DNA of 64,000 bases, taken from positions 28,755,564 through 28,819,563 of the forward strand of contig CAIIXF020000007.1 in the NCBI GenBank assembly GCA_903813345.2, written 5' to 3'. The notes beneath the pieces were generated by a model, which did not search any database, was not told the origin of the DNA, and saw nothing but the letters and a program-made list of their open reading frames with translations. The DNA is from Owenia fusiformis (taxonomy: Eukaryota; Annelida; Polychaeta; Sabellida; Oweniidae). Below, one piece after another: positions 11,274 through 63,835 of this stretch. The position numbers and the translations under genes were made by a program. Position 1 is the stretch's first letter, and every line of letters begins with the position of its first letter.

Positions 11274-11653
11274 TCATTTTCTCTCCTTGACAACAATGTT
11301 GAATGGCCCAGGTAGATTTGTTATTCCGTGAACAAACTTGGTTGGGTCTGGATCTGGTGGGTTGTTCTTGTCTTCGGGGAGAATGTCCAGTTTTTGTAGG
11401 AGACTGGTGACAAACAGGAACATTCTCACTTTGGCCATTGCTTCTCCTAAACACTCCCGTTTACCAATTCCAAATGGTAGAAATCTAAAAAAGCATAAAG
11501 GGCAACATTTGAAAACAACCCAGTCCTTTACAGACCTCATCCTCCGAAAACAGACTATGTACGTTGGAAAGATCAACCATAGGAGATATGCAAAAACAAA
11601 TGAGAATACAAAGGACAGAAATCAAATATAAATATATAAGATTACCAATGATC

Positions 11654-17145: not shown

Positions 17146-20100
17146 TCATTTTCTCTCCTTGACAACAATGTTGAATGGCCCAGGTAGATTTGTTATTCCG
17201 TGAACAAACTTGGTTGGGTCTGGATCTGGTGGGTTGTTCTTGTCTTCGGGGAGAATGTCCAGTTTTTGTAGGAGACTGGTGACAAACAGGAACATTCTCA
17301 CTTTGGCCATTGCTTCTCCTAAACACTCTCGTTTACCAATTCCAAATGGTAGAAATCTAAAAAAGCACAAGGGCAACATTTGAAAAACAACCCAGTCCTT
17401 TACAGACCACATCCTCCGAAAACAGACTATGTTCATGTACGTTGGAAGATGATCAACCATAGGAGATATGTAAATGCAATTGAGAATACAAAGGACAGAA
17501 ATCAAATATGAATATTAAATATATAAGATTACAAATGATCAATATCCATACCCACTGGTAGATCTGAAAGGGGAGCATTATGGAGATCAGTACTGTCAAC
17601 CCCCAAAGATTTTCTCGCGGGACAGATTTTTTAGACCCAGTGCCCAAAATTCGCGGGATTTTGCGGGACATCTACTAAATTCGCGGGATTTCGCGGGACA
17701 TTTAAGGGATTTGCGTGATTGCGCTTATAGGCCAATTTTTTTTATCAAATTCGCGGGATTTCGCGGGACCATTCGAGGGACAAACACCCTAATTGCGGGA
17801 CAGTTAACAGGTTTACCAGCAAAAACTTCATAGAGGGACAGATTTTCTAGAAAAAGTGCCCTAAATTTGCGGGATTTCGCGGGACATCCACCTAAATTTG
17901 CAGGATGTCCCGGGACATTTAAGGGATTTGCGTGATTTGGACTAATGTAAAAGCGTGTAAAAGTACTTGAATCAAACTTTCAGATACTGATTAATCAAAT
18001 ATAATGCACCGTTACATTGTAACTTAAATAAACGTCAATATAATTTCACAAAATACGCATAGAAATATTATTAAACTTTTTGTAATTTATCAAAAACAAA
18101 AACCATGCTTGAGGTGTGAGTATCGTAATCTAAAACGAAATTCAAAAAATTGGAACAATACTTTGCACTTCTCTGCTTCTGGCGTCGTGACCAACTACTA
18201 CCATACTGTAGGCATGGGCTTTCAATTGAAAGCCCATGATATAGGGGTTCGATTAATCTACATCATATTATAGGGAATGAGGTTACTTTTCTAGATAGGG
18301 TTTGTAGAAAAAAACGGGTACCGGTCAGTAAATCCTCCATGCTGGGTTCAAACTTTTTTTTTTTTTATTCCTTCATTCTTATTTATGTACATGTAAATAT
18401 AAATATGTACATGTAAATGTAATGCAATTAATAATATAAATAAAATTTACATAGACAAACTTGGTACCCAAAAAACGAAATATACGAATATACAACATAA
18501 TTAGATCATTAGAAAACGTGTAAGATTTGTTTTGAATTTACAAAAATGTAACTTCCTTCAAAATTGAGCTAGAAGCTTCAAATAAAAAGCATTTTAAGCC
18601 TCTTTTCTTCCTCTATCATCATGGTCATATTTCCATTGGTAATGAAGGGGGAGGGGGTGCGATCGCACCATCACACCCTCTCCTGCCTACCCCAAGATAT
18701 TGTAAGACGATTTGAATAACAAGACAAATCAATTTTACTCTATTTTCAATGAGTTCGTATGTTGGTACGTGAACATAACCAATGAAAATATGGTCATGAC
18801 GATAGAGGAAGAAAAGAGCCTTAAAATATGCTTTTTATTTGAAGCTTCTAGCTCAATTTTGAAAGATGTTACATACATTTTTGTAAATTCAAAACAAATC
18901 TTACACGTTTTCTGATAATCTTATTATGTTATACTCGTATATTCGTATTTTTCATTTTTTGGGTACCCATTTTTTGACCGGGTACCGGGTACCAAGTTTG
19001 AACCCAGCATGGAGGATTTACTACCCGGTACCCGGTTTTTTCTACAAACCCTTTCTAGATATCAGCGTCCATTTATTGTAACTCGCGTTTGCTAACATTT
19101 GCTCAGTTCTGAGATGAAGGCCACACGGATAGTAAAAAGGCCAACGTTGGAACTATTTGTGACCTACATCCCTATTGTCGTAATTAAAATGAAAGTTGAA
19201 CCCTTCCTCTTTATTTTGATACCAAACAACAGCATGCTAGGTACTTGAAATTAGGTAAACTTTACTCCTCAAAAGTGCAAAAACTTAGCTTCTTATATAA
19301 GATAAGATAATCACCATATAGGGGATTGCAACAATTTCGGAAATTCGCGGAGGTCGAAAGCCACATTTGCGGGACTTCGCGGGACATTGCGGGACACGCG
19401 AATTAGCCTAATTTTGATCGAATTCGCGGGATAATCCCGCCATTCGCGGGACACTTGACAGCTCTGGGAGATCCACCCCTACCCAAGAATGGGCCCAGAA
19501 AGTTTTTCAGCCCTAAAACTTAAGTTTATAGGGCCTCATTAGTGGGCCTTTTCGGGCATTACATAGCCTTTTTAGGGCTTATTTTTTTAATTTTAAGCCA
19601 AATTATAAAAATGAGCCTTATATTTAAAAAATTTCCGCCACATACCTATACGTCAATTACATCTCAAGGCAATACAATACAATATGGGTATTACATTGTA
19701 CAGCTTCTTGAGACATTTTGTCTCCAAAATGAGCCTTGGGCTACACAAATCAAATTGCAATTAGGCCTATCAAACTTTTATTCCAAATTGGGGTTTGCAT
19801 GGTCTTATAATAACAGAACTGAAATGTTACTTCATAGACATTGTACTGTTGTATGCTGTATCACTTACGATTTTCGTTCATGTGCTGAAAGAGATTTACC
19901 ATTGTCATCCAAGAATCGTTCTACTTTGAACTCGTATGGCTCATTAAAATACGTCTCATCGTGGTGTAATGCCCAAAGATTCATCCAAACCTTGCAAACA
20001 AACGACAACAGTAATATTTCTTTTGACTTTTACAAGACATTTCCAATTGAAAAATAAACTAATTACCAACTTATTACCAACTAATTTAAAACTAATTATC

Positions 20101-34485: not shown

Positions 34486-37400
34486 TCACTGTCTCTCCTT
34501 GACAACGATGTTGAATGGCCCAGGTAGATTTGTTATTCCGTGAACAAACTTGGTTGGGTCTGGATCTGGTGGGTTGTTCTTGTCTTCGGGGAGAATGTCC
34601 AGTTTTTGTAGGAGACTGGTGACAAACAGGAACATTCTCACTTTGGCCATTGCTTCTCCTAAACACTCCCGTTTACCAATTCCAAATGGTAGAAATCTAA
34701 AAAAGCATAAAGGGCAACATTTGAAAACAACCCAGTCCTTTACAGACCTCATCCTCCGAAAACAGACTATGTACGTTGGAAAGATCAACCATAGGAGATA
34801 TGTAAAAACAAATGAGAATACAAAGGACAGAAATCAAATATAAATATATAAGATTACCAATGATCAATATCCATACCCACTGGCAGATCCGGAAGGGGAG
34901 CATGGTGATCCACCCCCTCCTCAAAGATGGGCCAAGAAAGTTTTTCGGCCCAAAAACTTAAGTTTATAGGTCCTCATTAGTGGGCCTCTTCGGGCATTAC
35001 ATCTTTTTAGGGCTTATTTTTTAATTTTAAGCCAAATTATTTAAAAATGAGCCTCATGTGTAAAAAACACCCACCACATTCCTATACGTCAATTACATTA
35101 TAAAGCAATACATTATATGGTTATTGCACTGTACAACTTACAACTTCGTGAGACATCTTGTCTTCAAAATGAGCCTTGTGCTACACAAATCAAAATGCAA
35201 TTAGGCCTATCAAATTTTTATTACAAATTGGGGTTTTCATGGTCTTATAATAACATAACTGAAATGTTACCGCAGAAACTTCACAGACAGATACTGTCTT
35301 ATGCTGTATCACTTACGATTTTCGTTCATGTGCTGAAAGCAATTTGCCATCGTTATCCAAGAATCTTTCCACCTTGAACTCATATGGCTCATCAAAGTAC
35401 TTCTCATCGTGGTGTAATGCCCAAAGATTCATCCAAACCTTGTAAAACAAACGACATATGGAAATATTTCTTTTGACTTTTACACGATATTGGCCGAAGA
35501 TTTTTGACAGCAGTACACGCCATCAGAAACAGACTCGAAATATCTTTAACTTATATAGCCCAAACAACTCAATATTATCTGTAGACATTTCATGATTTTA
35601 CATTTTGCAATTCCCTTACCATTGTTCCACGTGGTACTTTGTAACCACCTACACTGGTGTCACAAAGAGTTTTATGGGGGATAGACAATGTTGTAGTCGT
35701 GCTGTAGCGAAGAATTTCCAAAACTGCAGCTTCTGAATAAGGCATATTATGCCTATCTGCAAAGGTTGGTAGTCGTCCATCACCAATGACATCATCAATT
35801 TCAGCTTGTATTTTTTTCTGGACGTCAGGTTTGTTGACCAAAATCAACAGAAATGCTTTCAAAGTTGTTGATGTTGTCACGATTCCTATACAATGATACA
35901 AACACATATCAGTATTCCGTTTTCCAGAATCACATACAGACATGTAAAATTGTTTAATTGTCAATTACTTAATTACATTCTCAACAGTGAACTTGGCAGT
36001 GAATTTCATAGTTAAACCTGCACAAATTTCCAATGTAGTATATGGTATAACGGTCGTGCGGTAACTCTCCTGGATGCTGTTACAGACATTTACATTTAAA
36101 AATATCTAGAAAATAGACCAGATCTTTCTGAAAGAATGAAAACGTGAGTTTGCTCTAATCGTATCATCCTCGTATTATACAGTATCTTAATACCCGTGCG
36201 TTCAACTACCACGCTTAATTTGGTACACACCCTGTGATAGATGGATTAAAAATAAATATGATATAAATAAGTATGATAGTTCGGAGGCATGACAGAGGGA
36301 TAATTAGCTAGAGGCTTACAGATACAGGTGAATTGACTATTCGAAATGAAGAGTGATTTGATAGAATGTTTTGTTTAGTCGTTTTGCTATTTTTATAGTT
36401 TACCAGCCAAAAGAATATCTTGCATAACGCCATAGACCTCATCCTTTCTGATGTCCCCTTGTTCGTAGTGTTGTTGCAGCACTTCACATACACTCAAAGA
36501 CTCTTCACTGTGTAAGCTCAACTGATATAAAATGACAAATAACATTACAATACATTTTTCAGTAGATATTTATACTGAAGTGCTTAATTTTCAGTACAAA
36601 CTATAAAATGAAAGATAAATATGTAAGTTGAGCAATGTTGCCATTTGTCCTCGACGGAAGTGGGGAATAATTGTAAAAAAGTTTAGCTCAATAATTTTCA
36701 ATATACAACTTTTAAGTAGGCAGGCTGACACTTTTACCTCTCAAATGGAACTGTGGCCTGAGGGCAAATCGGACTCTGAACCTCTCTTTGTTCAGCTACT
36801 ATATGTAATTTACAATTACAACTGATAAAAACTCTTTAACGTTATCATTTTTTAACTAAAGAAGTACTGAGTATTGGTGGATTATGTCAAAGATCATCTG
36901 TTTACATATGAAATATCTCATGTTCAGTTTCAACTCCATGACGCACTTATTTTATATAAGTTTTTTTTTATTCAGGCCTTTGTCTTTTTCCAATCTGTAT
37001 TTAACCTTACCCTGTTCTCAGCTTTTTTCAACCAAGATGAAAACAATTTAATTCGCTTCCCATTGAATTCCTTTAACATTTTGAAGGACTCGTTTCCAAA
37101 GAATCTTAGCCAAGGAAACATGTCAAGTTCAGCGCCTGGTCCTGCTGGTGCAAATCTTTTACCAGTCTCTACCATAAAGTGTACTGAAGAGAAGTCTTCT
37201 GAGTTTTCGCCAATGCGTTCTCCCACCAGCTTAAATTAAAAATAAAATGTAAATAAAACACTTCAGGCTTGCTCTATTGAACAAAATGCATGTGCATGCA
37301 TTCTTTCCCATTTTTTTTTTATTTTGGTCATTGTGCTTTCTTTTGAACTACTTATGTATGCGTTTAACAAATCGATAAATTAGGGTGTCCTAGACATGCC

Positions 37401-39300: not shown

Positions 39301-42300
39301 TTATGGAGCTAAACGTTCATAGACCCATCCAGCATCCCCTGGATGGGTTATTGTCTCATCAAATGTCTCCCCCTCTTGGTGTTTCCTGAATACGATCCTG
39401 TCGTGTACACGGTTTGTCTGCCCCTGCCAGAACTCCACCATGTGTGGCTTCACAACATAGCCACCCCTGAAAAAAGAAAAAGCATGTTTTGATATTTCAA
39501 CTTGTCATATTTGATATTTCAACTTGTCATATTTGATATTTCAACTTGCCATATTTGATATTTCAACTTGTCATATTTGATATTTCAACTTGCCATATTT
39601 GATATTTCAACTTGTCATATTTGATATTTCAACTTGTCATATATGATTTTTCAACTTGCCACTTTTGATATTTCAACTTGTCATATTTGATATTTCAACT
39701 TGTCATATTTGATATTTCAACTTGTCATATTTGATATTTCAACTTGTCATATTTGATATTTCAACTTGCCATATTTAATACGTCAATTTGTATGCTCATA
39801 AAACTAATCCTCATTCAATTATGATGAAATTTCTAGCAACCTGATTGGCTCAAGTGACATATATATATAGGTTATTTCATGCTTGATTTTCACTATGAAT
39901 TTTATTCCAGGGTAATATGATATTGACCGAGGGAAATATGATATTGACCGAATGAGTGTAGCGAGTGAGTGTCAATATAATATTTACCGAGGTCAATGTC
40001 ATATTTCCCGTGGAATAAAATTCATATTGAAAATCAAGCATGAGAAAACCTTTTTATTCCATAATTTGATTTTTGAGAATTCAAGGAAAAAGAAATATTT
40101 AAGAAAATTGAAAAATTGAAATTTTTTGAAAAAAATGAAAAAAATGATTCAAAATCGAAAATGATATTTTAAATAAATGAAAATCTTTGAAAAATTTCGA
40201 GTAAATATGATTTTTTTTACAGGGACAATATGATTTTTCGAGTATATATGATTTTAAGAGGGATAATATGATTTTATTTCCCAGGGAAAACAGTAGTATT
40301 ATGGAATAAACATTTGTATATTCTATGCTGTTTCTTTTACACTCTAACATCTACGTTAATAACAAAACTATTTACATGTACCATTGAAAACATACAGTGT
40401 ACATTCCCAAAATCATTGAATTACCTTTAAATCATTCAACTTCTATATATTTTTAAGATTATAACTTTTCTTTACATGAGTCTCTTGAGAGCCCATGTTA
40501 TGGCCCACCAACGTGTAATTTAACAAGTTTTTAATCATATCGCCCAGAAGGAATCAGTTTATACTATTTCAACTCTATGCCATGAGCGTCAGAGCCTAGA
40601 ACATGAGGCTGTTAGGTAGGTAGATACATGTAGTTAGGTAAGGTAGATGACAGTCATTTTAAAAGAAGTAAAATCAAGCTACCTTAACCGAAATTAACAT
40701 TATTTAATTCAAGTATTAAAAGTAGCAACATACCAATAATCTGGTTTTGGAATCTCTTTTGACTCATCTGCATATTCGTTTGTTAATTTTTCATTTCTCT
40801 CGCGGAGAACCTGTAAGAATCAATGTTATTCACTTTAATTGAGGCTAAAAACACATCAGTTATTCAGGATTAGGACACAACGATACCGATGATCTTAACT
40901 GATTTGTTTGGGTAGTAACAATTACAGCTTTACGATTAATATTCATATTCATTAATAAATTAATTTTAGCCCACAAGTTTACACGTTTCTTTAATTCATT
41001 TGTAAGCGTAAGTTTACAAGTTCACATTTCAGAAAACCTCACGTAACCTCAGAAAATAATGCTTTATTCACAAGTCCTAAAATTATCAAAAGCTTCTGAT
41101 TTTTCAAGAATTCCTTGCTCAGTGGGGCTTACATCTCTTCCTGTTATTATTGTGCTCTGGTGACTAACAATTGCTCCTATCTGGCTGGACCGAGGACGGG
41201 AATGGAAGTAAGTGGTCGACTCCTCCTCAGATAGCTTCTCAACTATGCCCTCTATACGCACCTACAAGAACCAGTTCATTTCAGAAAATGACAGAAAACA
41301 ACATAGACATTTAAATAAATATTGAAACAAGATTATACAACATTTTTTAACATTTATTATTCATTTGTTTATTCAACTTTTAAGTCAAATGGACAGATAT
41401 TTGACTTGTTTGTGACACTTGCACAAACATTCACGCATAGTTATGAGATATCAAATCCAGCCAATCAGAACACACTATAGCAAATAATATGCACTCAAAT
41501 TTCAACAGAGAAATTGCTATTTTCAGAAAAATTGAAATTGATGACTCTCATCAATTTCATGATTTCAAGTTGGCACTTGAATGAAAAACTATAAATAGTA
41601 TCATTGAATAGAAAGTAAGGTGCTTATGCAGGTCAAAATGTCAAACTGTAAAATCCTTGCAAAAATGCTCTTGCAAAAAATCATTCAATAAAGTGATACT
41701 GTACAAAATATTTTGCAATGTGTGCACTCAATGAATTGTGGACGATTTATACACTCATGTCTTGTGTCATAGACATTGAATTCTGGCATACAAGACATAC
41801 ATGGTTTAAAGCATCTACAATTCATAGAGTTCTGCGCTTAAATTCTTAATCTCACCAATGCTTACCGATCGCATAAGAGGCTCCCAGTAAAACATCAAGC
41901 TAGCCCTGGGATTCTCAGCCTGAAAACATTAGGTTCTTTATATATACATCATAAGGACTGTTAAATTATGAGCCATGGAATATCTCAAAACACATTTCAA
42001 ATGAAGTGGATATATTTTGCTTTTTTGCAAACAGGGATACAGACAATTTTCAAAGTACATGTACATTGATTTTATAAGAAACATTGATTTTTTAGGGAAT
42101 GTCATACACAGAGAAACTCCCAATAATTAAAAATACTTATTATATTTTTGACAGAAAAGCCAACTTGTAATTTTCATATGTCTAAAATTAATATAAATAC
42201 AGAAATGGCATGATGAATATGTGCTCCACTGCACAATCCTAATAATGAATGTGTTATATTGAGATATCCCCTAGCTTGATTTGGTCTTTTGTTTACCTGT

Positions 42301-45300
42301 CTTGACCAGGTAGTAGTCGCATCTGTTTCATTCACATTGGTCCAATAGAAACACAAAGCTGCTCTTGCATTTTCCTCCTGAAGATGCCAATTGATATACT
42401 CCAAGGTTTTAATATACCATTTGAAAGGTGAACAATTGTCAGCTTTAAAAATATGACCTCTTAAAGCTGTTAAGTGGTTCATGAGTTACAAATTTGTATA
42501 ATTGACAGTTTTACAACACCAGGGATTTAATTAAGGAAATTTTATCTTAAACAATCTATTTATATTATTCTATTCCAAAAAGCTGAATCTTATGATAAAT
42601 ATTTTAGGGTAGATGTGTTTTATTGTAAAGTGGGTAGAAGGAATAATGAAAAATATGTGCATGTGAAGAGTGAGGAAAAACAGAAGGCCAGGAATAACAA
42701 TCTTAAATTTTACCCAGCATGTCAAAAAACAGTCCTAGATTGTCATACCAAAGAGTATCCCCGAACTTTTGAAATGAATCCATGAAACAGTTTGGTTGAT
42801 GAATGGTGTAATGTGAGTGTGCAGAGTAACCCCAAGGAATGAAAATCTAAAGCAGCCACCTTTAAATTTTCCCACCGTGCCCGAAAAGTAATCAATTCAA
42901 ACAATTTGCCCAAGACACTTAGATACGATGATTTTGAAATGCCTGCCATTTGGCCTGAAAACCAATCAGAATACAGCACCCAAGAGTGGGAAAAAAGATT
43001 TTGTTATACAGTACACAAAGTATCATTTTTATGTCATGTTAATTCAATGAAATTAATGTAATAATGAAACAAGGTAATTTGATTTCATGTACACAGAAGG
43101 AGAGTATCATGTTAAGATATCCAGATCATATGAAAAAATTAATATCTTGTGGGACCATTTGACAAGACAGAAAATGCAAGAGCAGTTATTTATAAACAAG
43201 ACAAAACTAAAATCTTTAGAGAATCTATATCAATCAACCGTTAGCCAATTATCCAAGGTTTACATCTTCCACTGCTCATCACAATCAATCTACTTATCTC
43301 CCTTTGCTCACCACAACCAAACATTTTATCTTCCACTGCTCATCACAATCAATCTACTTATCTCCCTTTGCTCACCACAACCAAACATTTTATCTTCCAC
43401 TGCTCATCACAATCAATCTACTTATCTCCCTTTGCGCACCACAACCAAACATTTTATCTTCCACTGCTCATCACAATCAATCTACTTATCTCCCTTTGCT
43501 CACCACAACCAAACATTTTATCTTCCACTGCTCATCACAATCAATCTACTTATCTCCCTTTGCGCACCACAACCAAACATTTTATCTTGCACTGCTCACC
43601 ACAATCAACCTACTTATCTTGCACTGCTCACCACAATCAACCTACTTATCTCCCACTGCTCACCACAATCAATCTACTTATCTTCCGCTGCTCACCACAA
43701 CCAGCATACTTGTATGACACTGCTCACCACAATCAACCTATTTACCTTGCACTGCTCACCACAATCAACCTATTTATCTTCCACTGCTCACCACAATCAA
43801 TCTACTTATCTCCCACTGCTCACCACAATCAACCTACTTATCTTGCACTGCTCACCACAATCAACCTACTTATCTCCCACTGCTCACCACAATCAATCTA
43901 CTTATCTCCCACTGCTCACCACAATCAACCTACTTATCTTGCACTGCTCACCACAATCAACCTACTTATCTCCCACTGCTCACCACAATCAACCTACTTA
44001 TCTTGCACTGCTCACCACAATCAATCTACTTATCTTCCTTTGCTCACCACAACCAACCTACTTATCTTGCACTGCTCACCACAATCAACCTACTTATCTT
44101 CCACTGCTCACCACAATCAACCAGTATTTATCTTCCGCTGCTCACCACAATCAATCTACTTATCTTGCACTGCTCACCACAATCAACCTACTTATCTTCC
44201 ACTGCTCACCACAATCAACCAGTATTTATCTTCCGCTGCCCACCACAATCAATCTACTTATCTTGCACTGCTCACCACAATCAATCTACTTATCTTGCAC
44301 TGCTCACCACAATCAACCTACTTATCTTCCACTGCTCACCACAATCAACCAGTATTTATCTTCCGCTGCTCACCACAATCAATCTACTTATCTTGCACTG
44401 CTCACCACAATCAATCTACTTATCTTCCACTGCTCACCACAATCAACCAGTATTTATCTTCCACTGCTCACCACAATCAACCAGTATTTATCTTCCACTG
44501 CTCACCACAATCAATCTATTTATCTTCCACTGCTCACCACAATCAATCTATTTATCTTCCACTGCTCACCACAATCACTCAACTTATCTTCCTTTGCTCA
44601 CCACAACCAAACATTTTATCTTCCGCTGCTCACCACAACCAGCATACTTGTATGACACTGTCTACCACAATCAATCTGCATGTATTACACTGCTCACCAA
44701 ATCTTGGCTTTTTCTACTGGTCATATTTGTGAAAAATCTGAAGCCTCTTTCATCATAGCCTTTTAGTAGCATAATTCTTATTGATGGTCTACCAGTTCTA
44801 AAACAATCAAACCATGCATTGAATAGACTCCATGGAAGTAGCCTTGATAAAAATAGGTGGGGAAAATAACAATATGTATGGCAAATTACAAAATATGAGG
44901 CAAATTACAATATGAGAGGCAAAACTTGAGCAAAATAGGATGTTAATACTCGCATGATAATCGTACGTCATTTTCAGTTTTAGTCGCAAAAACATAAAAA
45001 ACTTGGTGGTGTAAGTCTCATCATGGGCTTTCAATACAATGCCCATGGTCTCATCAAGCTTGAAGTTGAAGTCATCAAAAAGAAATCAGATCAAAAAACT
45101 TTTTTTTCCAAAAATTGGGTGAGGACTCGCCCATTGCTCACTATGCCCATAGGGTCACACAGAATCGTTCCTATAACATTCACCAATAACATGGTAATGT
45201 ACATAAACATTTATGTATGTTCTTCACCCCTATAAGGATTGAAAGACAGTCAGAGTAAATTATAATTTCCATGCAGAACAGAATAATATGTTTTATAAGA

Positions 45301-48300
45301 CACAATTTGACAAGAGAAACAAAAATTAATATCTCGATAACCAAATGTTTTATCTTTCATAGGATATTTGTGAAAACAGAGAACTGAAACCCAGGACTAA
45401 CATTTTAACATCATGTTACAACATGTATATTTAGCAGTTTTAGAATAAAACTGACAAAATCAAATTAAAAATAATAAAACAAATCAAACTAATTGAAAAA
45501 AAATTAATTATGAAAAAAGTTATTTAATTACAAAACTAATCAACAAATCAAAATGAAATCCACAAAATCAGACCCAATACGAGAGTGTACAGTAGGATTC
45601 CAGTTCTAAAAGCTGAGACAAGCAGGGGGTGAATTTAGCTTACCTAAAAGCAGAATAAGCAAGAAGGATTTAAATTGAAAATTATGGGGAATGGGTGTAA
45701 TAGTTTCACTGCAATGTAGACACTCACAATTTCTTTTCCTTTTCTACTCTCATAGTTGGTGTAGAACCTGAAACCCTTGTCATCATAACCCTTTAGCAAG
45801 ACTATCCTCAATGATGGTACTCCTGTCCTATAAAAAACAAAACAGATGGCAGATTAGTGGGGGAAGGACTGATGGTAAACTTGTGCTTGTTTTGACTTCC
45901 TTTTATTGAACCTTCAAATGCGAGTGTATTCTCTACCGTTTAATTGAAAATGATCAGTTTCAGTTTCTATTCTGCAGAATGGTTCACAAATAAAAGTTTG
46001 TGATTCTACTCACTCTTGGAGGTTCAAATCAAGGCAGAGCAAAAACATGTACATGTATTTATACAGAAGTTATGTTAGGGCATGTATGCCATTCCTTTTT
46101 ATGAAGAAACTTCAAAAACACTTATTTTTTAACATTTTGTCGATGGAAAACTCTGTGAATCAAAGTTCTTTTGAGTAGGAAACTTAAAACACAGAATTCA
46201 AATATGTCATCAAAAAGAACAAAATAGTCTTAATGGTGTATTCAAATCTCATTAATCTCTCCTAAAATCTCATTAAAAAGAAAAATTAAAGTCACTTTTA
46301 TTAATGAGGTTTCAAAGCTATATAGCAAAACTTCTGTTGACTTGAAAAAATACTAATATTTATATCAATGACATAAATTCTAAACATTCAAATTATGTAA
46401 GTCACTTCTATCTCCAACGATGAATAGAAATTTCTCAATTTTGTGTTAAAATCAATAAAACTAAGTACTTTGTGGCTGTTGCAAGAGACATGGCATTCGC
46501 TTCTCTAATCCCATCAGTCTGGCAGGCAATTTCAAACCAATGTTTAAATTGGGCAATGGGCTCCTTGGCAACCAGGCTGTCTTCTTCAAATGCCTCTTGG
46601 TCTCCCTTATAAGGCTTTCTCATCCCTGAAGTGAAGGTAGAAAAAATAAACAAGTTGGTTTATCTAGAATGTGAACTTAATTTAGAAGAAAAAATAAAAC
46701 TAGACAACAGCAAGGCCAAAGCGTAGCAAATCCCATCGAACAGCCATGGCTGGCATTTTTACAAACAAAGTATATAGCAGAATGGTAGCCATTTTTCAAA
46801 ATGGCCTCCTTCTACCAAAAGTGTCATTAGACAGTGTGTCATGCTTATAGTATTCACATACCAAATATGAACAAAATCGCTCCACTACTTTTCGACTTAT
46901 ACTAAAAAACGTTAAAATGGTGGCCATTTTACAAAATGGCCGCCTCCTAACAAAAGTGTCATAAGGCAGTGAGCCATGCTTATAGTATTAACATACCAAA
47001 TATGAACAAAATCGCTCAACTACTTTTTGAGTTATAGCAAAAATCGTAAAAATAGCGAGTAAAGGCCGCCATTTTTCAAGATGGCTGCCATGTGCTTCTT
47101 TAATACCTACATTTCTAGCTTTATTAATGTCCTATATAATTTTTTTACATTTAAAACATAATGCTATTACATTTTTACATATTGTACCTAAATTACTGTA
47201 AAATCTGCACTAAAATGGCTGCCATTTTTAAATGAGTGGCCATTTTGAAAATCAGCTTTTGAGCAGAACTTCTACTCCCATAAGGTATATGTGTACAAAA
47301 TATGAACAAATTCGGGCAAACGGTATTTGAGTTGTTGCACAGTCGGATGGACATACGGATGTACGTATGTACGGTCTATCCCATCAATCGAAGTTTGGAG
47401 GGATATAGGGAATGCTTCCGTCCGTCCGTCCGTACGACCATAGTTTGATTTGCTTTAATATTGAACCAAGAAAAAATAACTCACAAAGAAAAAAGCATTT
47501 GAAGTTCAGAGATCATTAGACATGCATGCAGATGTTGATCTAAAAGATGGCGACACTTCTATAAAAATGAATGTATAATGTAATACAAACAACTTTGCCA
47601 TCTTTCAATGACATTCATAAAAACTTGATATATAAAACTTGACAGATTGAAAATATTTTTTGATAATTTATTGTAAGCTTTGATGTGGTCTGTTTGAGCC
47701 TTTGTTGGTGTCAAATGAAAGATAGGGATCTTATCAATACATTGGACATAGTATGAAATTCAAATGTAAGTCTTTATTTTGACCAAAAACACTGAAAATA
47801 TGCAAAGTGGGCCTTTAATGAAATGGCTAAAATGTCTATACTCTATATCCTATACACAAAACCAATAAATCTTACAGTGCCCAACCACACTGATCAGCCA
47901 CTATTAAGTATAAGATAAATGCATATGATTAATTAAGATATGCAACGTGAAGATGACAGGCACCAGAAATGCAGCTTCTTCACTTTTTTCAGAAGATTAC
48001 ATGTTTAGCAAACATTTACAAATAAAACTAATTACATCTAAAATGTAGATTAGTTTTGAGCACTTGACACTTAATCCAGAGGCTGTGGGTTTGATTCCCA
48101 CCAAGGTGGACGACTTTTTCACATTAGCCCTTATAAGGGCGTAGCCAGTTTTCAGTCAGAAGGGGGGGGGTGCGCGATAAATTTTGGTTTTCAGTCAGGG
48201 GGGTGCGATTGTGACATAAACAAGAGAAAAAAATAAGATTTATGTAGAACTTTACAAAAATTGATGTAACTTCCTTCAAAATAGACTAGATGCGAATAGA

Positions 48301-50670
48301 AATAATCTTGATTTACGTCATTAAATATTCAAAATTCAGTCAAAAAGTGATGTCATATTTGAAATCTACATGTAAAAGTACATCTAGAAAAATGGTTTCG
48401 AAAATTGTTTATCAACTTTGAAAATTTAATTTTTTTTGAAAATGTGACTTCTAGCTCGGGTTGATTCCTCATAGACCCCATGTTACAAAATCACAAAAAG
48501 TGAAATATCTTTTCTTGTATTGGACAGATAACATTTTCTTTTACTGGACATATTTTAATTTGCATAACTATTAGATACCTAAGGGTTATATAAAAATTGA
48601 ACCACTAAAACAGATGTAATTTAACTTAATAAGTTAAAGGGAACTTTCTACTATACCCGCCATGTTATCTGACCCGAACGAGCCAAAAAATGGTAACTAC
48701 CTACTTGCATCTGCGTTATTGAGCTAGAACCTTCAAATAGAAAGCATTTTAAAGCTCTTTTCTTCTTCTTTCTCATGTTTTATTTTTATTGGTTATGGGG
48801 GGGGGGGGTGCGAGCGCACACATCGCATCCCCCCTGGCTATGCCATGCCTATGGCATAGAATTTGATGTTTCAAAAGCATTAATTTCCCCTTTGGGTCCT
48901 TTGAGGAATGACACATCTATGTGCTAAAATGGGACTGGGATTCAGATGATTGGGATTCGGACGATTGGGTTTCGGACCAATGGTGGGATTAGGACGATAA
49001 TTGGCTTTCTGATCAATGGGATTCCGACAATTAGGATTCAGACAATTGGGTTTCAGACAAATGGGATCTGGACAGTAGGAATTTGGACAATTGGGATTCG
49101 GACCAATGGGATTCAGATGGTTTGTCAATTCTTTACGTACAAGAATTACATTTTCATTGCTTAAGCTCTCTACAATTTCAACACCACAATTTCAGTTGAT
49201 CCTGTTTAATAATCCTCCTGTACTTTAGTAATATTATATAGTTTATAAAAAGGTATCACTGATAGCTGAAATGACTTGAACATCAAAGTTGAACTTGACT
49301 CAAGCTGAATAACTTCACTGGTGATCTGCACGATTATGCTGCTGGTTACCGAAACGCATCGTTTCGGTAACAAAATGTCAGAACGTCGAAGATACAATTT
49401 TTCTTTTTTCCTTATTTTACCCGTTGTAGGCAGAATCCCCACCAGTATTCATTACATGTATGCGATAAAATAGCTCAGAAGACAACAGAATTATCGATTT
49501 AATTCCTCACTTAAGTTACAGAAACAGTAAGGGCTAAAAGTGTAGATCTTAACTGTTTTTCGAGATATAGTTTCTGTAACTTTAGTGAGGAATTATATCG
49601 ACGATTCTGTTGTCTTCTGAACGATTTGTTCGCAAATATGTACATTTTCTTAAACATATGATACCATGGACATTCAACTAGACCATGATGATACTGATAT
49701 ACATTTGTGATAAAAATGTTGTGGGAATTCTGCCTACAACGTGTGAAATAAGGCAAAAAGAAAAATCGAACCTTCGACGTTCCAACATTTTGTTCGTTTC
49801 CAAACTCCTTTTACATTCCCCAATCATTATTTTGTCAAAATGTTTCAAGAATCCTGAAATATAAGAAGAAATATGCGCGGTAGGATTTAGAGTTAAACCT
49901 TTTGTTGATAATGTTTCACCGCACGTGTGTTTATTTAGTTAAAACGCGCCATCTAACCAATGAACTTGTCTAGCTTTTACAATCACGTGAAACCAGCATG
50001 AGACAAGAACCAATCACGTCTAGTATGTATATCCAACAGACTGACTAGAAGTCAGTCTGTTATGATGAACTACTTTCCTGTGGAAATTGCAGTGAAATTT
50101 TTTGCACAAAATTATCAATTGGAGGAACAATTTCTTCAATAAAATAAACATTACAAAAGTCTACAATCACGTCAGTTGTTTATAACGAAGTTGCCATGCT
50201 TACAATAAACAATCTGCCCACCGCAGTTATATGTTGAAGACTAGCACTGCATGCATGGATAGTGGGGAGTCCTCCATATATTACTTATATTATTTCTATA
50301 CCTCCTAGATGGAGGACTTCCCACTATCCGTGACTGCATGGGAGTACACTTCGTTTCGGTAACCAGCGTAATCGCCAATCTGGTGCATTGCATTACCAGT
50401 GATGTCACAGATATTGGCCAGATCGTTTTGTAGTAGGATCGAATAGGAATATTTATTGAGCTACTGATCCTACTACAAAAGAATCTGGCCGGGATCTATG
50501 AGTGATGTGAACTTGAGCCTGAGGTGAATGAAAAAAAAAACTTTCTTCAAAAAATTACCTGCAACATCAATTCCATTGCTCATGCTGGACGTCATTCTGA
50601 TTAATGTTGTGTCTAAGTTAATATTAACCAATCGCGTATATATAAGAGTGTTTCTGATAAGCGACAACAT
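39301..50670 (-). CDS. PNPO: Pyridoxamine-5'-phosphate oxidase
   Basis: FMN enzyme that oxidises pyridoxamine- or pyridoxine-5'-phosphate to pyridoxal-5'-phosphate, the last step of the salvage route. Exons in order: 1, 50670-50559; 2, 46625-46469; 3A, 45827-45728 or 3B, 44797-44698; 4C, 42377-42297 and/or 4D, 41919-41866; 5, 41261-41133; 6, 40810-40734; 7, 39466-39301. With 3A and 4D the product is 264 residues (human 261). Exon 1 encodes a basic N-terminus ([13 protein letters not shown]), possibly a targeting peptide; Met26 or Met30 are alternative starts. Then [14 protein letters not shown], the FMN segment RIVLLKG...[37 protein letters not shown] (phosphate-substrate and FMN contacts), WGGYV, EFWQG, HDRIVF and the family C-terminus ERLAP. 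Exon 1 to 2 joins in matching phase (1 nt plus GG). The gene is divergent from the CW-PWWP gene. Exon 2 has a weak donor (AA/GTACTT). Confidence 0.93.
39487..39778. repeat. 22-bp tandem repeat in PNPO intron 6
   Basis: Unit TATTTGATATTTCAACTTGTCA, about 13 copies with few variants, starting about 20 bp upstream (in gene sense) of the exon 7 acceptor. Confidence 0.93.
39865..40052. repeat. Foldback MITE in PNPO intron 6
   Basis: Left arm TTATTTCATGCTTGATTTTC and GAATTTTATTCCAGGG are repeated inverted at 39995-40052 (GTGGAATAAAATTCATATTG, AATCAAGCATGAGAAAACCT). About 190 bp, no ORF. The AT-rich tail to 40310 repeats ATATGATTTT motifs. Confidence 0.8.
41866..41919 (-). CDS. PNPO: PNPO exon 4D (18 codons)
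   Basis: Reads [18 protein letters not shown] with a TTTTCAG acceptor and GTAAGC donor, phase 0 on both sides. Length and sequence match the vertebrate segment DSNPFASLVFYWEPLNRQ. It joins directly to exon 5 (VRIEG). The position that is usually Gln, an FMN contact in the human enzyme, is Ser here. Confidence 0.85.
42297..42377 (-). CDS. PNPO: PNPO exon 4C, alternative or extra copy (27 codons)
   Basis: Reads [12 protein letters not shown], then nine residues absent from other family members, then TTTWSRQ. Donor CAG/GTAAAC is good; acceptor CTTCAG has a weak pyrimidine tract. Phase 0 at both ends, so it can replace 4D or be added to it without shifting the frame. It keeps the usual RQ before VRIEG, which 4D lacks. 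It resembles 4D at about 9 of 18 comparable positions, so it is an old duplicate. Expression is unproven. Confidence 0.65.
43255..44697. repeat. 32-bp minisatellite abutting PNPO exon 3B
   Basis: About 45 copies of CTGCTCACCACAATCAACCT plus about 12 bp (ACTTATCTTGCA). The left end (43265-43590) shows a 64-bp higher-order unit with TTTGCTCACCACAACCAAAC. Because 32 is not a multiple of three, all three plus-strand frames stay open for hundreds of codons; those frames are not genes. On the PNPO sense strand each unit contains GGTGAGCAG, the same string as the exon 3B splice donor at the array edge. Confidence 0.95.
44698..44797 (-). CDS. PNPO: PNPO exon 3B, paralogue of exon 3A
   Basis: 100 nt with a GTTTTAG acceptor and TTG/GTGAGC donor. 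Reads [18 protein letters not shown], then [15 protein letters not shown]. It has exactly the length and phase of exon 3A, matches it at 21 of 33 residues, and keeps the family residues RI.LLKG, FRF.TN and SRK. Because each exon begins with one base of a split codon and ends on a codon boundary, including both would shift the frame, as expected of mutually exclusive exons. Confidence 0.85.
44798..45727. other. PNPO intron between exons 3A and 3B
   Basis: No exon-like sequence. Small frames at 44807-45046 and 45023-45235 show no domain. Confidence 0.6.
45728..45827 (-). CDS. PNPO: PNPO exon 3A
   Basis: 100 nt with a TTTTTATAG acceptor and ATT/GTGAGT donor. Reads [18 protein letters not shown], then [15 protein letters not shown], the FMN-binding segment (human: FRFFTNFESRKGKEL). 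The first base completes the Lys codon begun by exon 2. Confidence 0.93.
46690..47345. repeat. Dispersed ATGGCCGCC-type repeat in PNPO intron 1
   Basis: Starts AAACTAGACAACAGCAAGGC and runs to AAATTCGGGCAAACGGTATT. It is the same family as the blocks flanking the P450 copies (8800-9460, 15780-16700), so the family is not confined to that cluster. Confidence 0.75.
47372..47445. repeat. CCGT-rich dispersed repeat end
   Basis: ATCCCATCAATCGAAGTTTG, GGATATAGGGAATGC and (CCGT)3. A relative is at 58195-58290. Marks the end of a dispersed repeat; no gene. Confidence 0.7.
47446..48136. other. PNPO intron 1, unique part
   Basis: Nothing recognised beyond AT-rich intronic sequence. Confidence 0.5.
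48137..48845. mobile_element. Inverted-end repeat (GCGTAGCCAG ... CTGGCTATGCC)
   Basis: Both ends carry an inverted GGC(G/A)TAGCCAG motif followed inward by a G-run and TGCG(C/A)G. The interior (48240-48620) matches 21230-21550 in opposite orientation. No ORF. Exact target duplication not resolved. Confidence 0.6.
48930..49118. repeat. 18-bp minisatellite
   Basis: Imperfect repeats of GACAATTGGGATTCGGAC / GACCAATGGGATTCAGAC. The complementary frame gives a Pro-Asn-rich peptide (PNPN/CPNP) that reflects the repeat only. Confidence 0.85.
49366..49803. repeat. Long imperfect palindrome in PNPO intron 1
   Basis: The arm 49366-49442 (GTCGAAGATACAA ... GTTGTAGGCAGAATCCCCA) pairs with 49722-49803 (TGGGAATTCTGCCTACAACG ... 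CTTCGACGTTCC). Inside, 49477-49620 is a tighter hairpin around CAGAAAC / GTTTCTG. Matching TGGTTACCGAAACG near 49345 and CGTTTCGGTAACCA near 50360 suggest an even wider inverted pair. Confidence 0.8.
50246..50340. repeat. Hairpin CATGCATGGATAGTGGGGAG
   Basis: The left arm around ATAGTGGGGAGTCCTCCAT pairs with ATGGAGGACTTCCCACTAT on the right; AT-rich loop of about 35 bp. Confidence 0.85.
50417..50490. repeat. Hairpin GGCCAGATCGTTTTGTAGTA
   Basis: Arms GGCCAGATC-GTTTTGTAGTAGGATC and the complement ending AGAATCTGGCC, loop about 26 bp. Lies about 70 bp from the PNPO exon 1 donor. Confidence 0.85.
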
Positions 50671-53700: not shown

Positions 53701-55590
53701 CTATCAGATAGGGGGTGCTCTGAAATCAGATAATTTAAAAAGATCTTTTGCGAAATAATGGCATCCAGCAAAGAAAATGTTGTTCATGTACATGTCCAGA
53801 AAAAAAGTATTAGTAAGCTGTTTTTTGTGAAGTGTACATTATTGGCTATTTCAGTGCTCTTATAACATTTGATATTTTAGAAAAAAAGTCAGTTGACCCT
53901 CAATAGACATTTTTGAATTTTTAGGTACCATAGACAATACACCTGTTCATGATAGCTACAAAGAACAATTGGAATTGATCAGCAAACTTGGACAGGTGGA
54001 GAAACACGATGATGGAACAGACACAACTCAGTCAAGCCAGACTTCAAATACAACCAGTCTTGGCTCATCCATTGTGCGGCAGGTATGTTCAAGTTATAGG
54101 TAATTTATCCTGTATATTTGAGAATTGCAATTTCTATTGCTGCAGAGTACAGACCAACTGGTGGATCCAGGGAGGGGGCCCCAAAAATATAATAGGGTCT
54201 GCCTTTTTAGGCCAAATTAGCGAAAAGTGGGCCTGAAATTTTCAATATTTGATTTTATGGGCTCAAAACTATTTTCCTGAATTGATATTTGACTTAGCCC
54301 CTGGATCCGCCAGTGAGAACTATATGTTTGTATATACAGTGAAACCTGTTAAATTGAGCACCTCTAGAAGGGGAACACCTCTAATAGCAGAACACTTTTC
54401 AAGAGTCCCAAGACCAACTGACTTCATGTTAAAAGAACCTCTTTAACAGTAAGTGAAACACCTTGCAAGTGGAACACTTTTTAGAGGTACCAAAAGTGTT
54501 CCACTTAAACAGGTTTCACTATTCATGTATGTACATTTGTATACAGTGATGCACCTCTAGTACATTATAGATGAAACAAGATATAACTAAGAGGTTCACT
54601 GTGAATATATTCCTTGCTATCAAATTGATTATCAAATTAAATTCATTACAAATCCACCTACATCACCACAAATAACCAGAGGAAACTTGATAGATCAAAT
54701 CTAATTTATTTTGGTGAGGGTCATTGCACATTGATTTGTTTTGAATTAATTATCTTAAAAGTAACAATGTTTTCAATTCCATGTACCATTCAATGTATGC
54801 TACCTGTCTTTGTATGCTGATAACATTTCAGGTACAAAATGATACATGGGTCCAATGCGAAAACACAAGTTGTTTAAAATGGCGACGGGTGCCAAAATTA
54901 GATGCAAAAAAATTAGATGAAACTTCTTGGTTCTGTAAAATGAACCCTGATGAATGTCATAACTTCTGCGAAGCTGCTGAGGAAGATTATGATGTCTGGG
55001 AACGCATGATCAAAAAATGTGGTTACAAGTTTATCCACTCTACACTGGATGAAGGGACCCTGGTATGGGCTAAAATGCAGGGCTATTGCAAGTAAGACTT
55101 TTGATGATATAGCAAAAATTAGGGATGGGTTTGAAGGCTTCGGAACAATAAACTTAACTTAAAAATAAAAATAAATAACAGGGATTTCATTAGCAGCGGG
55201 CAACAGGCGATTTTCATCGGTTGTTTTCACAAAATCGCCTGTTGTATTTAGGGACTTTTCCATGTTAAATATATGATATCCATTAATTTTGCCTGTTGTT
55301 TTAATTTATTTATTTTAATTTATTTAGCCTGTTGTGAGAAATTCTAGTGAAATCCCCGAATAAATAAATGTGTGGATACTGTACATGCAATTTATAGATG
55401 GCCAGCCATTGTGACAAGGGACCCTGTTGGTGGAGCGCATGTCTTCTCAGATACGGATGGCGAGCCTTTGTCCTACCATGTAGAGTATCTCGGCAAGAAG
55501 CATACACATGGTTGGGTGCAAAATCAACATGTGGAGTTGTATGGAGAAGCCTCTAAACCACAATCATCAACGACATGCACATCAAGCAAG
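50751..55590 (+). CDS. ZCWPW2: CW zinc finger and PWWP domain protein, ZCWPW2-like, 3' end not seen
   Basis: Chromatin reader: CW domains bind methylated H3K4 and PWWP domains bind methylated H3K36 and DNA. Secure exons: 53925-54082, 54832-55091 and 55398-55590; the exon to 52272 (LTRRKLKKLLHQ) also joins in phase. Exon 54832-55091 has WVQCENTSCLKWRRVP ... SWFCKMNPD ... NFC, giving the four Cys and Trp of the CW fold, then EGTLVWAKMQGYC. The next exon continues KWPAIVTRDP ... YHVEYLGKKHTHGWV, completing the PWWP (CKWP core across the intron). The WVQCEN..CLKWR and WFC.MNPD blocks fit ZCWPW2 better than ZCWPW1. The 5' end is less sure. Either 50751-50928 splices to 52120 (phases fit), or translation starts at ATG 52128 in an exon entered at 52103, since all frames from that acceptor hit early stops. 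The last visible exon ends at AAG/GTCAGA inside the first unit of a minisatellite. Confidence 0.82.
51000..51160. repeat. Nested double hairpin in intron 1
   Basis: Outer pair ACCAAACCCGTCTGGCC / GGCCAGACGGGTTTGGT encloses two hairpins: 51024-51084 around GATTTTGAAAGTATACTTTC, and 51096-51148 with CTGGCCCAGTTATCTACTC pairing with its complement. Confidence 0.88.
51638..51962. repeat. 325-bp near-perfect palindrome
   Basis: Arms of about 155 bp with centre near 51798 (GAGAAGCCCTTCTCAC). For example, GTTTGAAAATCAAGGACTGC on the left is mirrored by GCAATCCTTGATTTTCAAAC on the right. The short frames on both strands here are mirror images of each other and are not genes. Probably a foldback transposon. 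Confidence 0.93.
52390..53070. repeat. Dispersed repeat rich in AGGTCA half-sites
   Basis: Imperfect units of about 110-150 bp with the theme TGACCTGAGGTCAAGGTCAT, TCTCAAGGTCAA and ATATCTAGGTTTTTGGCGTT; continues after the MITE at 53535-53650. Contains several TCAAGGTCA strings and a directly repeated CAAGGTCAAAGGTC. Interrupted at about 52610-52805 by a G/C-run repeat of the family seen at 54150-54315. Confidence 0.8.
53073..53534. mobile_element. MITE with TA duplication, TIR CTGTAAAACGGGTA
   Basis: A 462-bp insertion in the half-site repeat. Ends CTGTAAAACGGGTA / TACCCGTTTTACAG, flanked by TA; sister repeat units read CTAGGTTTTTGGCG without it. The interior has CGCTAAAATTTCCCG motifs in both halves. 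Confidence 0.9.
54150..54315. repeat. Short dispersed repeat (GGTGGATCCAGGGAGGGGG)
   Basis: Starts CTGGTGGATCCAGG and ends CCCCTGGATCCGCCAG, so the ends are inverted; about 165 bp within the intron between the N-terminal exon and the CW exon. Confidence 0.75.
54335..54522. mobile_element. Second copy of the 39-214 MITE
   Basis: Ends AGTGAAACCTGTTAAA and the complement TTTAAACAGGTTTCACT-like; the interior GGAACACCTCT and AGAGTCCCAAGA match 39-214. Confidence 0.8.
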
Positions 55591-57512
55591 GTCAGACATT
55601 AATCAACTACATGCACATCAAGCAAGGTCAGACATTAATCAACTACATGCACATCAAGCAAGGTCAGACATTAATCAACTACATGCACATCAAGCAAGGT
55701 CAGACATTAATCAACTACATGCACATTAAGCAAGGTCAGACATTAATTAACTACATGCACATTAAGCAAGGTCAGACTTTAATCAACTACATGCACATCA
55801 AGCAAGGTCAGAAACTAATCAACTACATGCACATTAAGCAAGGTCAGACATTAATCAACTACATGCACATCAAGCAAGGTCAGACATTAATCAACTACAT
55901 GCACATTAAGCAAGGTCAGACATTAATCAACTACATGCACATCAAGCAAGGTCAGACTTTAATCAACTACATGCACATCAAGCAAGGTCAGACATTAATC
56001 AACTACATGCACATCAAGCAAGGTCAGACATTAATCAACTACATGCACATCAAGCAAGGTCAGACATTAATCAACTACATGCACATTAAGCAAGGTCAGA
56101 CTTTAATCAACTACATGCACATCAAGCAAGGTCAGACTTTAATCAACTACATGCACATCAAGCAAGGTCAGACTTTAATCAACTACATGTACATCAAGCA
56201 AGGTCAGACATTAATCAACTACATGCACATTAAGCAAGGTCAGACATTAATCAACTACATGCACATTAAGCAAGGTCAGACATTAATCAACTACATGCAC
56301 ATCAAGCAAGGTCAGACATTAATCAACTACATGCACATTAAGCAAGGTCAGACATTAATCAACTACATGCACATTAAGCAAGGTCAGACATTAATCAACT
56401 ACATGCACATCAAGCAAGGTCAGACATTAATCAACGACATGCACATCAAGCAAGGTCAGACATTAATCAACTACATGCACATTAAGCAAGGTCAGACTTT
56501 AATCAACTACATGCACATCAAGCAAGGTCAGACATTAATCAACTACATGCACATTAAGCAAGGTCAGACATTAATCAACTACATGCACATCAAGCAAGGT
56601 CAGACATTAATCAACTACATGCACATCAAGCAAGGTCAGACATTAATCAACTACATGCACATTAAGCAAGGTCAGACATTAATCAACTACATGCACATTA
56701 AGCAAGGTCAGACATTAATCAACTACATGCACATCAAGCAAGGTCAGACATTAATCAACTACATGCACATTAAGCAAGGTCAGACATTAATCAACTACAT
56801 GCACATCAAGCAAGGTCAGACATTAATCAACTACATGCACATTAAGCAAGGTCAGACATTAATCAACTACATGCACATCAAGCAAGGTCAGACATTAATC
56901 AACTACATGCACATTAAGCAAGGTCAGAAATTAATCAACTACATGCACATTAAGCAAGGTCAGACTTTAATCAACTACATGCACATTAAGCAAGGTCAGA
57001 CATTAATCAACTACATGCACATCAAGCAAGGTCAGACATTAATCAACTACATGCACATCAAGCAAGGTCAGACATTAATCAACTACATGCACATCAAGCA
57101 AGGTCAGACATTAATCAACTACATGCACATTAAGCAAGGTCAGAAATTAATCAACTACATGCACATCAAGCAAGGTCAGACATTAATCAACTACATGCAC
57201 ATTAAGCAAGGTCAGACATTAATCAACTACATGCACATTAAGCAAGGTCAGACATTAATCAACTACATGCACATTAAGCAAGGTCAGACATTAATCAACT
57301 ACATGCACATCAAGCAAGGTCAGACATTAATCAACTACATGCACATCAAGCAAGGTCAGACATTAATCAACTACATGCACATCAAGCAAGGTCAGACATT
57401 AATCAACTACATGCACATCAAGCAAGGTCAGACTTTAATCAACTACATGCACATCAAGCAAGGTCAGACATTAATCAACTACATGCACATCAAGCAAGGT
57501 CAGACATTAACG
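55573..57512 (+). repeat. 36-bp minisatellite, about 54 copies, starting across an exon end
   Basis: Unit ACATGCACATCAAGCAAG followed by GTCAGACATTAATCAACT. The period is exactly 36 bp throughout with only point changes (ATCAAGC/ATTAAGC, CATTAA/CTTTAA/AATTAA). The first 18 bases of unit 1 are the last coding bases of the PWWP exon (TCTSSK) and the next 18 begin the intron, so every unit carries a copy of the splice donor. A 648-codon frame (12-residue repeat MHIKQGQTLINY) spans the array but is not the PWWP frame, which meets TAA in each unit. Confidence 0.97.
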
Positions 57513-57524
57513 CTAATTTGAAAT

Positions 57525-63000: not shown

Positions 63001-63577
63001 CTAAATTCCAATATCATTCCCAATGATGTAGACATCATTTCCATTTGTTTCATTCATTTTTAAACACTTTGACTTGCACATTTTTAAACACAATAGTTTA
63101 AATCCATAGTTGAAATCTCTGAATTGTACAAGCATTATGATAGGGTTAACACAACCTGAGAAACCATTTAAAAATAAATTCATAACTCTTATTATAAAGA
63201 TAGGGGTACGGGCTACCAACAACGGATCACTTAATAGATATATTGATGGAATGGTGTAGCAGATAAAGTATAAGAAACAAATTAGTCCGAGAGTTTTTGT
63301 CACTTTAATGTACTTTGTCTGGGCCATTGTTAGAATACTGCCGTCTGAAACTCTCATTCTTAGGAGACACATCACTCTTATATAGCATGCTACTGCGATA
63401 CAGTTCGGCAACAATATGAGCAAGATTGTTGTGTATTGCACCCATGTATTTAGCTTATCGAGGTCTCCTGTGGCAGCCATGACACAGTTTCCTAATATGG
63501 GCATATAACCAGCCTTAACTTGTCCTAGTATGTGCGGCACAACCAATAAGGAAAACGAAAAGATGAATAATATAACC
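63001..63577 (-). CDS. Rhodopsin-class GPCR, 3' exon (TM4/5 to C-terminus)
   Basis: About 192 codons of a seven-helix receptor. Order seen: hydrophobic helix VILFIFSFSLLVV (late TM4), extracellular loop with the conserved Cys (GNCVMAATGDLD), TM5 (TTILLILLPNCIAVACYI), a short third intracellular loop, TM6 (LGLICFLYFICYTIPSIYLL), TM7 ending in NPIIM, helix 8 (FRDFNYGF) and a short Cys/Lys tail. A polypyrimidine tract TTTTTTTCCTAAG just upstream makes 63577 the likely exon start; the upstream ATG at 63597 would lie in that tract, after an in-frame TGA. TM1-3 and the DRY motif are therefore in exons outside the window. NPxxY is NPIIM and the TM6 CWxP is CYTIP. Ligand unknown. Confidence 0.82.
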
Positions 63578-63599
63578 CTTAGGAAAAAAACAACCATTT

Positions 63600-63835
63600 T
63601 TTCCGAATTTCAACCATTAAAATCCATTGCGCAACCATTACAAATCATTGCATAACCATTGCTGCAACCAATTGAAATGGTTTCCAACCATTACATTGCA
63701 ACCATTAAAATTTGGTTGAAAACTTTGGTTGCATATCATTGAAATTATGGAATCATTTGCAACCATTACAAACCATTGATTGTTTAAGTTGCATTTTACC
63801 AAATGGTTGCAACTATTTTCAACCATATTGTGGAA
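63600..63835. repeat. AACCATT-rich minisatellite
   Basis: Imperfect short units (GCAACCATTACAAACCATTG) in the intron just upstream of the GPCR exon, with variable spacing. Confidence 0.8.

Follow-up and report, generated by a model that had tools for sequence, protein, structure and literature searches.

Two adjacent pairs of homologous exons in the PNPO gene of Owenia fusiformis, probably used one of each pair per transcript

Does PNPO, an enzyme gene of the annelid Owenia fusiformis, hold alternative versions of the exons that build its cofactor-binding core? The gene lies on the minus strand of the window considered here, i.e. a stretch of 64,000 nucleotides of contig CAIIXF020000007.1 (positions 28,755,564 to 28,819,563 of the forward strand, assembly GCA_903813345.2), and the initial annotation of this window described one pair of equal-length exons, 3A and 3B. 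Our analysis shows two homologous exon pairs rather than one, 3A/3B and 4x/4y. These are probably adjacent pairs of old duplicated exons, of which each transcript would take one member; the sequence support for this reading is good for the exon 3 pair and weaker for the exon 4 pair.

The gene starts with exon 1 (50559–50670, 112 nt from the ATG) and exon 2 (46469–46625, 157 nt), which ends with AA of a split lysine codon at the donor AAA/gtactt. The duplicated exons follow in the order 3A-3B-4x-4y: 3A (45728–45827, 100 nt) corresponds to human residues 89–121, and 3B (44698–44797, 100 nt) is its homologous alternative; 4x (42297–42377, 81 nt, 27 residues) corresponds to human residues 122–139 plus a nine-residue hairpin insertion and ends with Gln139; 4y (41866–41919, 54 nt, 18 residues) covers human residues 122–139 without the insertion and ends with serine at position 139. 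Exons 5 (41133–41261, 129 nt), 6 (40734–40810, 77 nt) and 7 (39301–39466, 166 nt to the stop codon) complete the gene. All eight acceptors have AG and all eight donors have GT. Human PNPO exons 3 and 4 are presumably 100 and 54 nt long.

The spliced products match human PNPO (1nrg) with E = 4.6e-89 for the 3A-4y form and 7.6e-81 for the 3B-4x form. In the scan against the PdxH family (TIGR00558, curated cut-off 180 bits) all four proteins with one exon of each pair are above the cut-off, 3A-4y with 251.6, 3B-4y with 246.7, 3A-4x with 240.5 and 3B-4x with 235.4 bits; this establishes family membership and carries no information on activity. When the genome (498 Mb, 525 contigs) was searched with the 3A-4y protein and with a 3B-4x-5 query, all eight and all four matches, respectively, at E up to 10 were inside the PNPO gene. 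Thus no second PNPO gene was detected by these two protein queries, which score the best candidates only, so that a distant copy could escape. A genome search with Pfam PNPOx_N gave no matches, the PNPO gene itself included, which we take to mean that the exons are too short for this model.

Exons 3A and 3B both start with the third base of the split lysine codon (AAG with 3A, AAA with 3B) and end on a codon boundary, and the identity between them amounts to 21 of 33 residues (64 of 99 nucleotides). The equal length, common phase, flanking AG and GT and 21 common residues given by the initial annotation, as well as its coordinates, are thus confirmed. In TBLASTN of 3A against the window, 3B is found at E = 8e-13 and the next match at 0.058, hence the likeness is not due to chance; a chance resemblance or a paralogue artefact was rejected on this E-value and on the confinement of the genome matches, from searches that score the best candidates only, to the PNPO gene. 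Exon 3A is identical to human PNPO at 21 of 33 residues and 3B at 19, so that 3A is equally far from 3B and from the human protein, which fits an old duplication if the rates are alike.

The frame consequences are simple. Joining 3A to 3B reads asparagine, tryptophan and then a stop inside 3B, and omitting both exons also leads to an early stop; a sound message therefore needs exactly one of the two. The initial annotation was therefore right that joint inclusion breaks the frame, the stop being two codons into 3B. Its proposal of mutually exclusive behavior stands on the sequence insofar as a sound message would use the two exons one at a time; the second pair was missed in it.

This second pair is formed by 4x and 4y. 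They find each other by TBLASTN with eight of 11 residues identical and E-values of 0.005 and 0.008, ahead of further matches at 0.11 and 0.15; both align to human residues 122–139, and nine of the 18 aligned positions are identical. Exon 4x has nine more residues than 4y in the hairpin turn; L057, one of the 50 family sequences described below, has three extra residues near the site of this insertion. With 12 residues identical to human PNPO in 4y and eight of 18 in 4x, the latter is the least family-like exon. All four combinations with one member of each pair are full-length and in frame.

A special case of our reading is that the two choices are linked, 3B being used with 4x and 3A with 4y, so that only two messages exist. 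This is possible, though we hold it to be clearly the lesser chance. It would agree with 3A and 4y being closer to the human protein than their partners (21 identical residues in 3A and 12 in 4y vs 19 in 3B and eight in 4x) and with 3B-4x forming one block between 3A and 4y; however, all four combinations keep the frame and pass the family cut-off, no sequence feature was found that ties the two choices, and the order 3A-3B-4x-4y is not what a single tandem duplication of exons 3 and 4 together would leave. A single block copy of exons 3 and 4 was rejected as an origin of the pairs, being at odds with this order and with introns that match in pieces of 10–32 nt only (E of 0.004 or worse).

The pattern of substitutions in the exon 3 pair bears on whether 3B has been functional. 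The mismatches between 3A and 3B number nine, five and 21 at the first, second and third codon positions, respectively (p = 0.003). The dN/dS comparison proposed for 3B in the initial annotation (rates of non-synonymous and synonymous substitutions, dN and dS) fits past protein selection, with LWL85 values of 0.22 for dN and 1.37 for dS. The Nei-Gojobori dS is undefined for both exon pairs because of saturation, and the maximum-likelihood dS values of 4.6, 20.2 and 2.8 are not reliable. Neutral decay of 3A was simulated at 19 rates with 20,000 runs per rate. No run combined an open frame with 21 or more identical residues and no more than 12 identical third positions; since every silent difference is put down to 3B in this combined test, it is biased towards rejection. 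The outcome makes a long neutral history of 3B unlikely, a recent loss of function being still compatible with it. The excess of third-position differences, the saturated silent sites and the neutral simulation indicate that 3B has long been under protein selection.

The same is seen in the columns of a family alignment of 50 sequences, i.e. human PNPO and 49 bacterial PdxH, which are not independent (L013 and L014, and likewise L031 and L032, are nearly alike). The 12 residues that differ between 3A and 3B fall where the family is more variable, with a mean column entropy of 2.01 compared with 1.04 (p = 0.004), and in the 13 strongly conserved columns, where one residue reaches 80%, 3A keeps the family residue in all and 3B in 12. 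This conservation bears on the idea that 3B is a regulatory poison exon, which would reduce the amount of PNPO by ruining messages in which it follows 3A. The stop two codons into 3B in the joined message would serve such a role, yet conservation at the protein level is not required of a poison exon and 3B alone gives a full-length protein, which makes this explanation very unlikely.

How the choice could be enforced differs between the pairs. Reading-frame incongruity together with nonsense-mediated decay is one known route of enforcing exclusion (PMC7969005). In the exon 3 pair, errors that join or skip both exons would end in a premature stop, giving no enzyme and a message that is probably destroyed. 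The AG-free zone upstream of the acceptor is 28 nt long before 3B and 14 nt before 4y, and the introns between the pair members measure 930 nt (3A-3B) and 377 nt (4x-4y); with such short zones and introns of these lengths, distant branch points seem unlikely, and enforcement of the kind known from OGDH is not supported. The pyrimidine tract of the acceptor scores 0.76 for 3A, 0.59 for both 3B and 4x and 0.47 for 4y, compared with 0.47 and 0.53 for the constitutive exons 5 and 6. The donors do not look like U12-type ones, and a scan of 44698–46625 for competing RNA structures yielded seven weak inverted repeats.

Several observations weigh against the reading of two pairs used one member at a time, most of them at exon 4. 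Every choice of 4x and 4y, both or neither included, stays in frame, so that the exon 4 choice is not enforced by the frame, and no other enforcing device was found for it in the AG-free zones and tracts or in the inverted-repeat scan, which covered 44698–46625. The columns of the 4x insertion are empty in all 50 family members. The tendency of differences to fall in variable columns is not significant for exon 4 (mean entropy 1.84 vs 1.43, p = 0.19), and of six conserved exon 4 columns 4x keeps four and 4y five. The protein 3A-4x-4y has the highest TIGR00558 total, 254.8 bits in two stretches; as it scores like the forms with one exon of each pair, the family scan gives no information on the joint use of exons. 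As for exon 3, when the third-position condition is dropped, 18.6% of the neutral simulations pass at 0.25 changes per site and 0.9% at 0.4.

Two rival explanations draw on these observations. The first, implied by the gene model of the initial annotation, is that 4x and 4y both belong to the constitutive exons, exon 3 alone being alternative. The joined product is in frame and still above the PdxH cut-off; however, the strand and hairpin of human residues 122–139 would then be present twice, a doubling that all 50 other sequences of the comparison lack, and the second copy of this core element would be expected to disturb the fold. We consider this explanation quite unlikely, and it is from structure only that we infer a choice of one member at exon 4. 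The second is that 3B and 4x are relics, formerly used and recently switched off, which are open by chance. A short neutral history is allowed by the simulation at 0.25 changes per site, and 4x has both the lowest likeness to the family (eight of 18 residues identical to human PNPO) and an insertion unique among the 50 sequences, but frames, splice sites and phase are intact in both 3B and 4x; this, too, we regard as unlikely, though somewhat less so.

If two pairs are used one member at a time, which we still prefer, the question is what the choice would change. In human PNPO, the phosphate of flavin mononucleotide (FMN) is contacted by Arg95, Arg229, Lys117 and Arg141 (PMC4856418); the contacts of FMN also include Thr111 and Gln139, Arg116 is located close to the phosphate at the end of a helix, and Leu97, the counterpart of Val69 in E. 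coli, is packed against the flavin ring (PMC10969823). Arg95, Thr111, Arg116 and Lys117 are identical in 3A and 3B. The suggestion of the initial annotation that the exon 3 differences cluster around the FMN phosphate region holds in that six of the 12 are at positions 113–121; Arg95 and Lys117, which contact the phosphate, and the nearby Arg116 are kept, so that an FMN-phosphate basis for a difference between the isoforms is not borne out.

The cofactor contacts that differ between the alternatives are at position 97 in exon 3 and position 139 in exon 4. Position 97 is Val in 3A and Met in 3B (Val in 46, Leu in two and Met in two of the 50 family sequences), and position 139 is Ser in 4y and Gln in 4x (Gln in 48, Thr in one and Val in one). 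The residue typical of the family is present at both positions in the 3A-4x form only, which carries the hairpin insertion. Position 118 is Gly in 3A and Ser in 3B (34 Gly, 15 Ala and one Ser in the family); human G118 variants appear in the disease section of PMC10969823. None of the residues of the allosteric pyridoxal 5'-phosphate site of human PNPO (48, 50, 248 and 258; PMC10804683) is within exon 3 or exon 4. Residues 100, 108, 112 and 114, which belong to two additional pockets obtained by docking (sites I and II; PMC10804683), fall in exon 3, position 114 being Glu in 3A and Thr in 3B.

Under the reading with one exon of each pair per transcript, the products would be full-length PNPO forms with one hairpin of variable length and with different residues at position 97 beside the FMN ring, at position 118 and at position 139, which contacts FMN, whereas inclusion of both 4x and 4y, though in frame, would double a core strand and hairpin. 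These differences suggest that the forms probably differ in cofactor binding, stability or regulation. The gene could probably make several forms of the enzyme by exon choice; we infer that these forms are expressed, arise by splicing of one exon of each pair and differ in function. As natural variants at positions 97, 118 and 139, the four proteins that could arise would be easy to express and compare.

The donor of 3B lies at the edge of a 32-nt minisatellite (43264–44703, minus strand, 44.7 copies by Tandem Repeats Finder), which starts within the final six bases of 3B, repeats the 3B donor and makes up 62% of the intron between 3B and 4x. Between 3B and the far end of the array there are 36 occurrences of GTGAGCA and 31 of GGTGAGCAG, both counts including the true 3B donor, and GGTGAGCAG is absent from the rest of the window on both strands. 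Reading through the true 3B donor meets a stop after eight codons, so that use of a downstream donor copy would spoil the message. The minisatellite may be a mere bystander. A far-reaching extension of our reading, to which we give little credence, is that two independent exon switches yield at least four PNPO enzymes with graded FMN binding, that dozens of donor-like copies, in a minisatellite grown from the splice donor of 3B itself, tune the use of this exon, and that vitamin B6 output is set by splicing and repeat number; the grading is proposed because Val97 and Gln139, the residues typical of the family, meet only in the form with the longer hairpin, 3A-4x. Another tandem repeat, of 22 nt (39488–39791, 13.8 copies, 92% matches), ends 22 nt before the acceptor of exon 7.

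Elsewhere in the window, several minus-strand open reading frames (ORFs) at 7960–38201 (for example, 11274–11621, 17146–17514 and 34486–34833, the last with FGIGKRECLGE) are by their look presumably tandem cytochrome P450 exons. The ORF at 54745–55095, also by its look, presumably encodes a CW zinc finger and, after it, the beginning of a PWWP domain, and the minus-strand ORF at 63001–63609 is presumably a fragment of a G-protein-coupled receptor. An open frame of 654 codons at 55557–57521 consists of a repeated MHIKQGQTLINY unit and is presumably a minisatellite without stops.

No report of mutually exclusive or duplicated exons in PNPO was found in open-access full texts, judged mostly from titles, by searches that included PNPO exon 3 and the fly Sgll isoforms. 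The terms PNPO and mutually exclusive exon both occur in PMC10961823, but the splice type is named in its methods only; positions of human PNPO splice variants were looked for in PMC7820968 and none are present there.

The PNPO pairs look like, and on paper would work like, tandem duplicated mutually exclusive exons, for which there are several known systems. Tandem duplicated exon substitutions, tropomyosin included, swap homologous exons within a gene, and two exons swapped for one are also described (PMC9741552); the principle would be the same in the PNPO pairs, and PNPO has no occurrences in that paper. OGDH, with exons 4a and 4b, is likewise a metabolic enzyme gene in which the combined length of the exon pair is not a multiple of three, but exclusion there operates via distant branch points in a short intron (PMC7969005), unlike PNPO with its 930-nt 3A-3B intron and AG-free zone of 28 nt before 3B. 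The mutually exclusive exons of mrp-1, which according to PMC7434440 originated independently in a number of invertebrate lineages, are of exactly equal length, as in the exon 3 pair of PNPO, although mrp-1 encodes a vitamin B12-linked transporter and not an oxidase. A further case is coq-2, where one or the other of the homologous internal exons 6a and 6e is spliced in helminths, annelids and molluscs, as supported by RNA and mutants (PMC7434440, eLife 2020). Both are metabolic enzyme genes with homologous internal exons, which change the core of the enzyme in coq-2 and would do so in PNPO; coq-2 encodes another enzyme and has one pair, whereas PNPO has two, seen in the sequence. PNPO would be a new instance of a known exon-swap principle in an unusual gene, and if both pairs are used, the cofactor-binding core of a housekeeping enzyme would be varied by splicing, as has been shown for coq-2 (PMC7434440).

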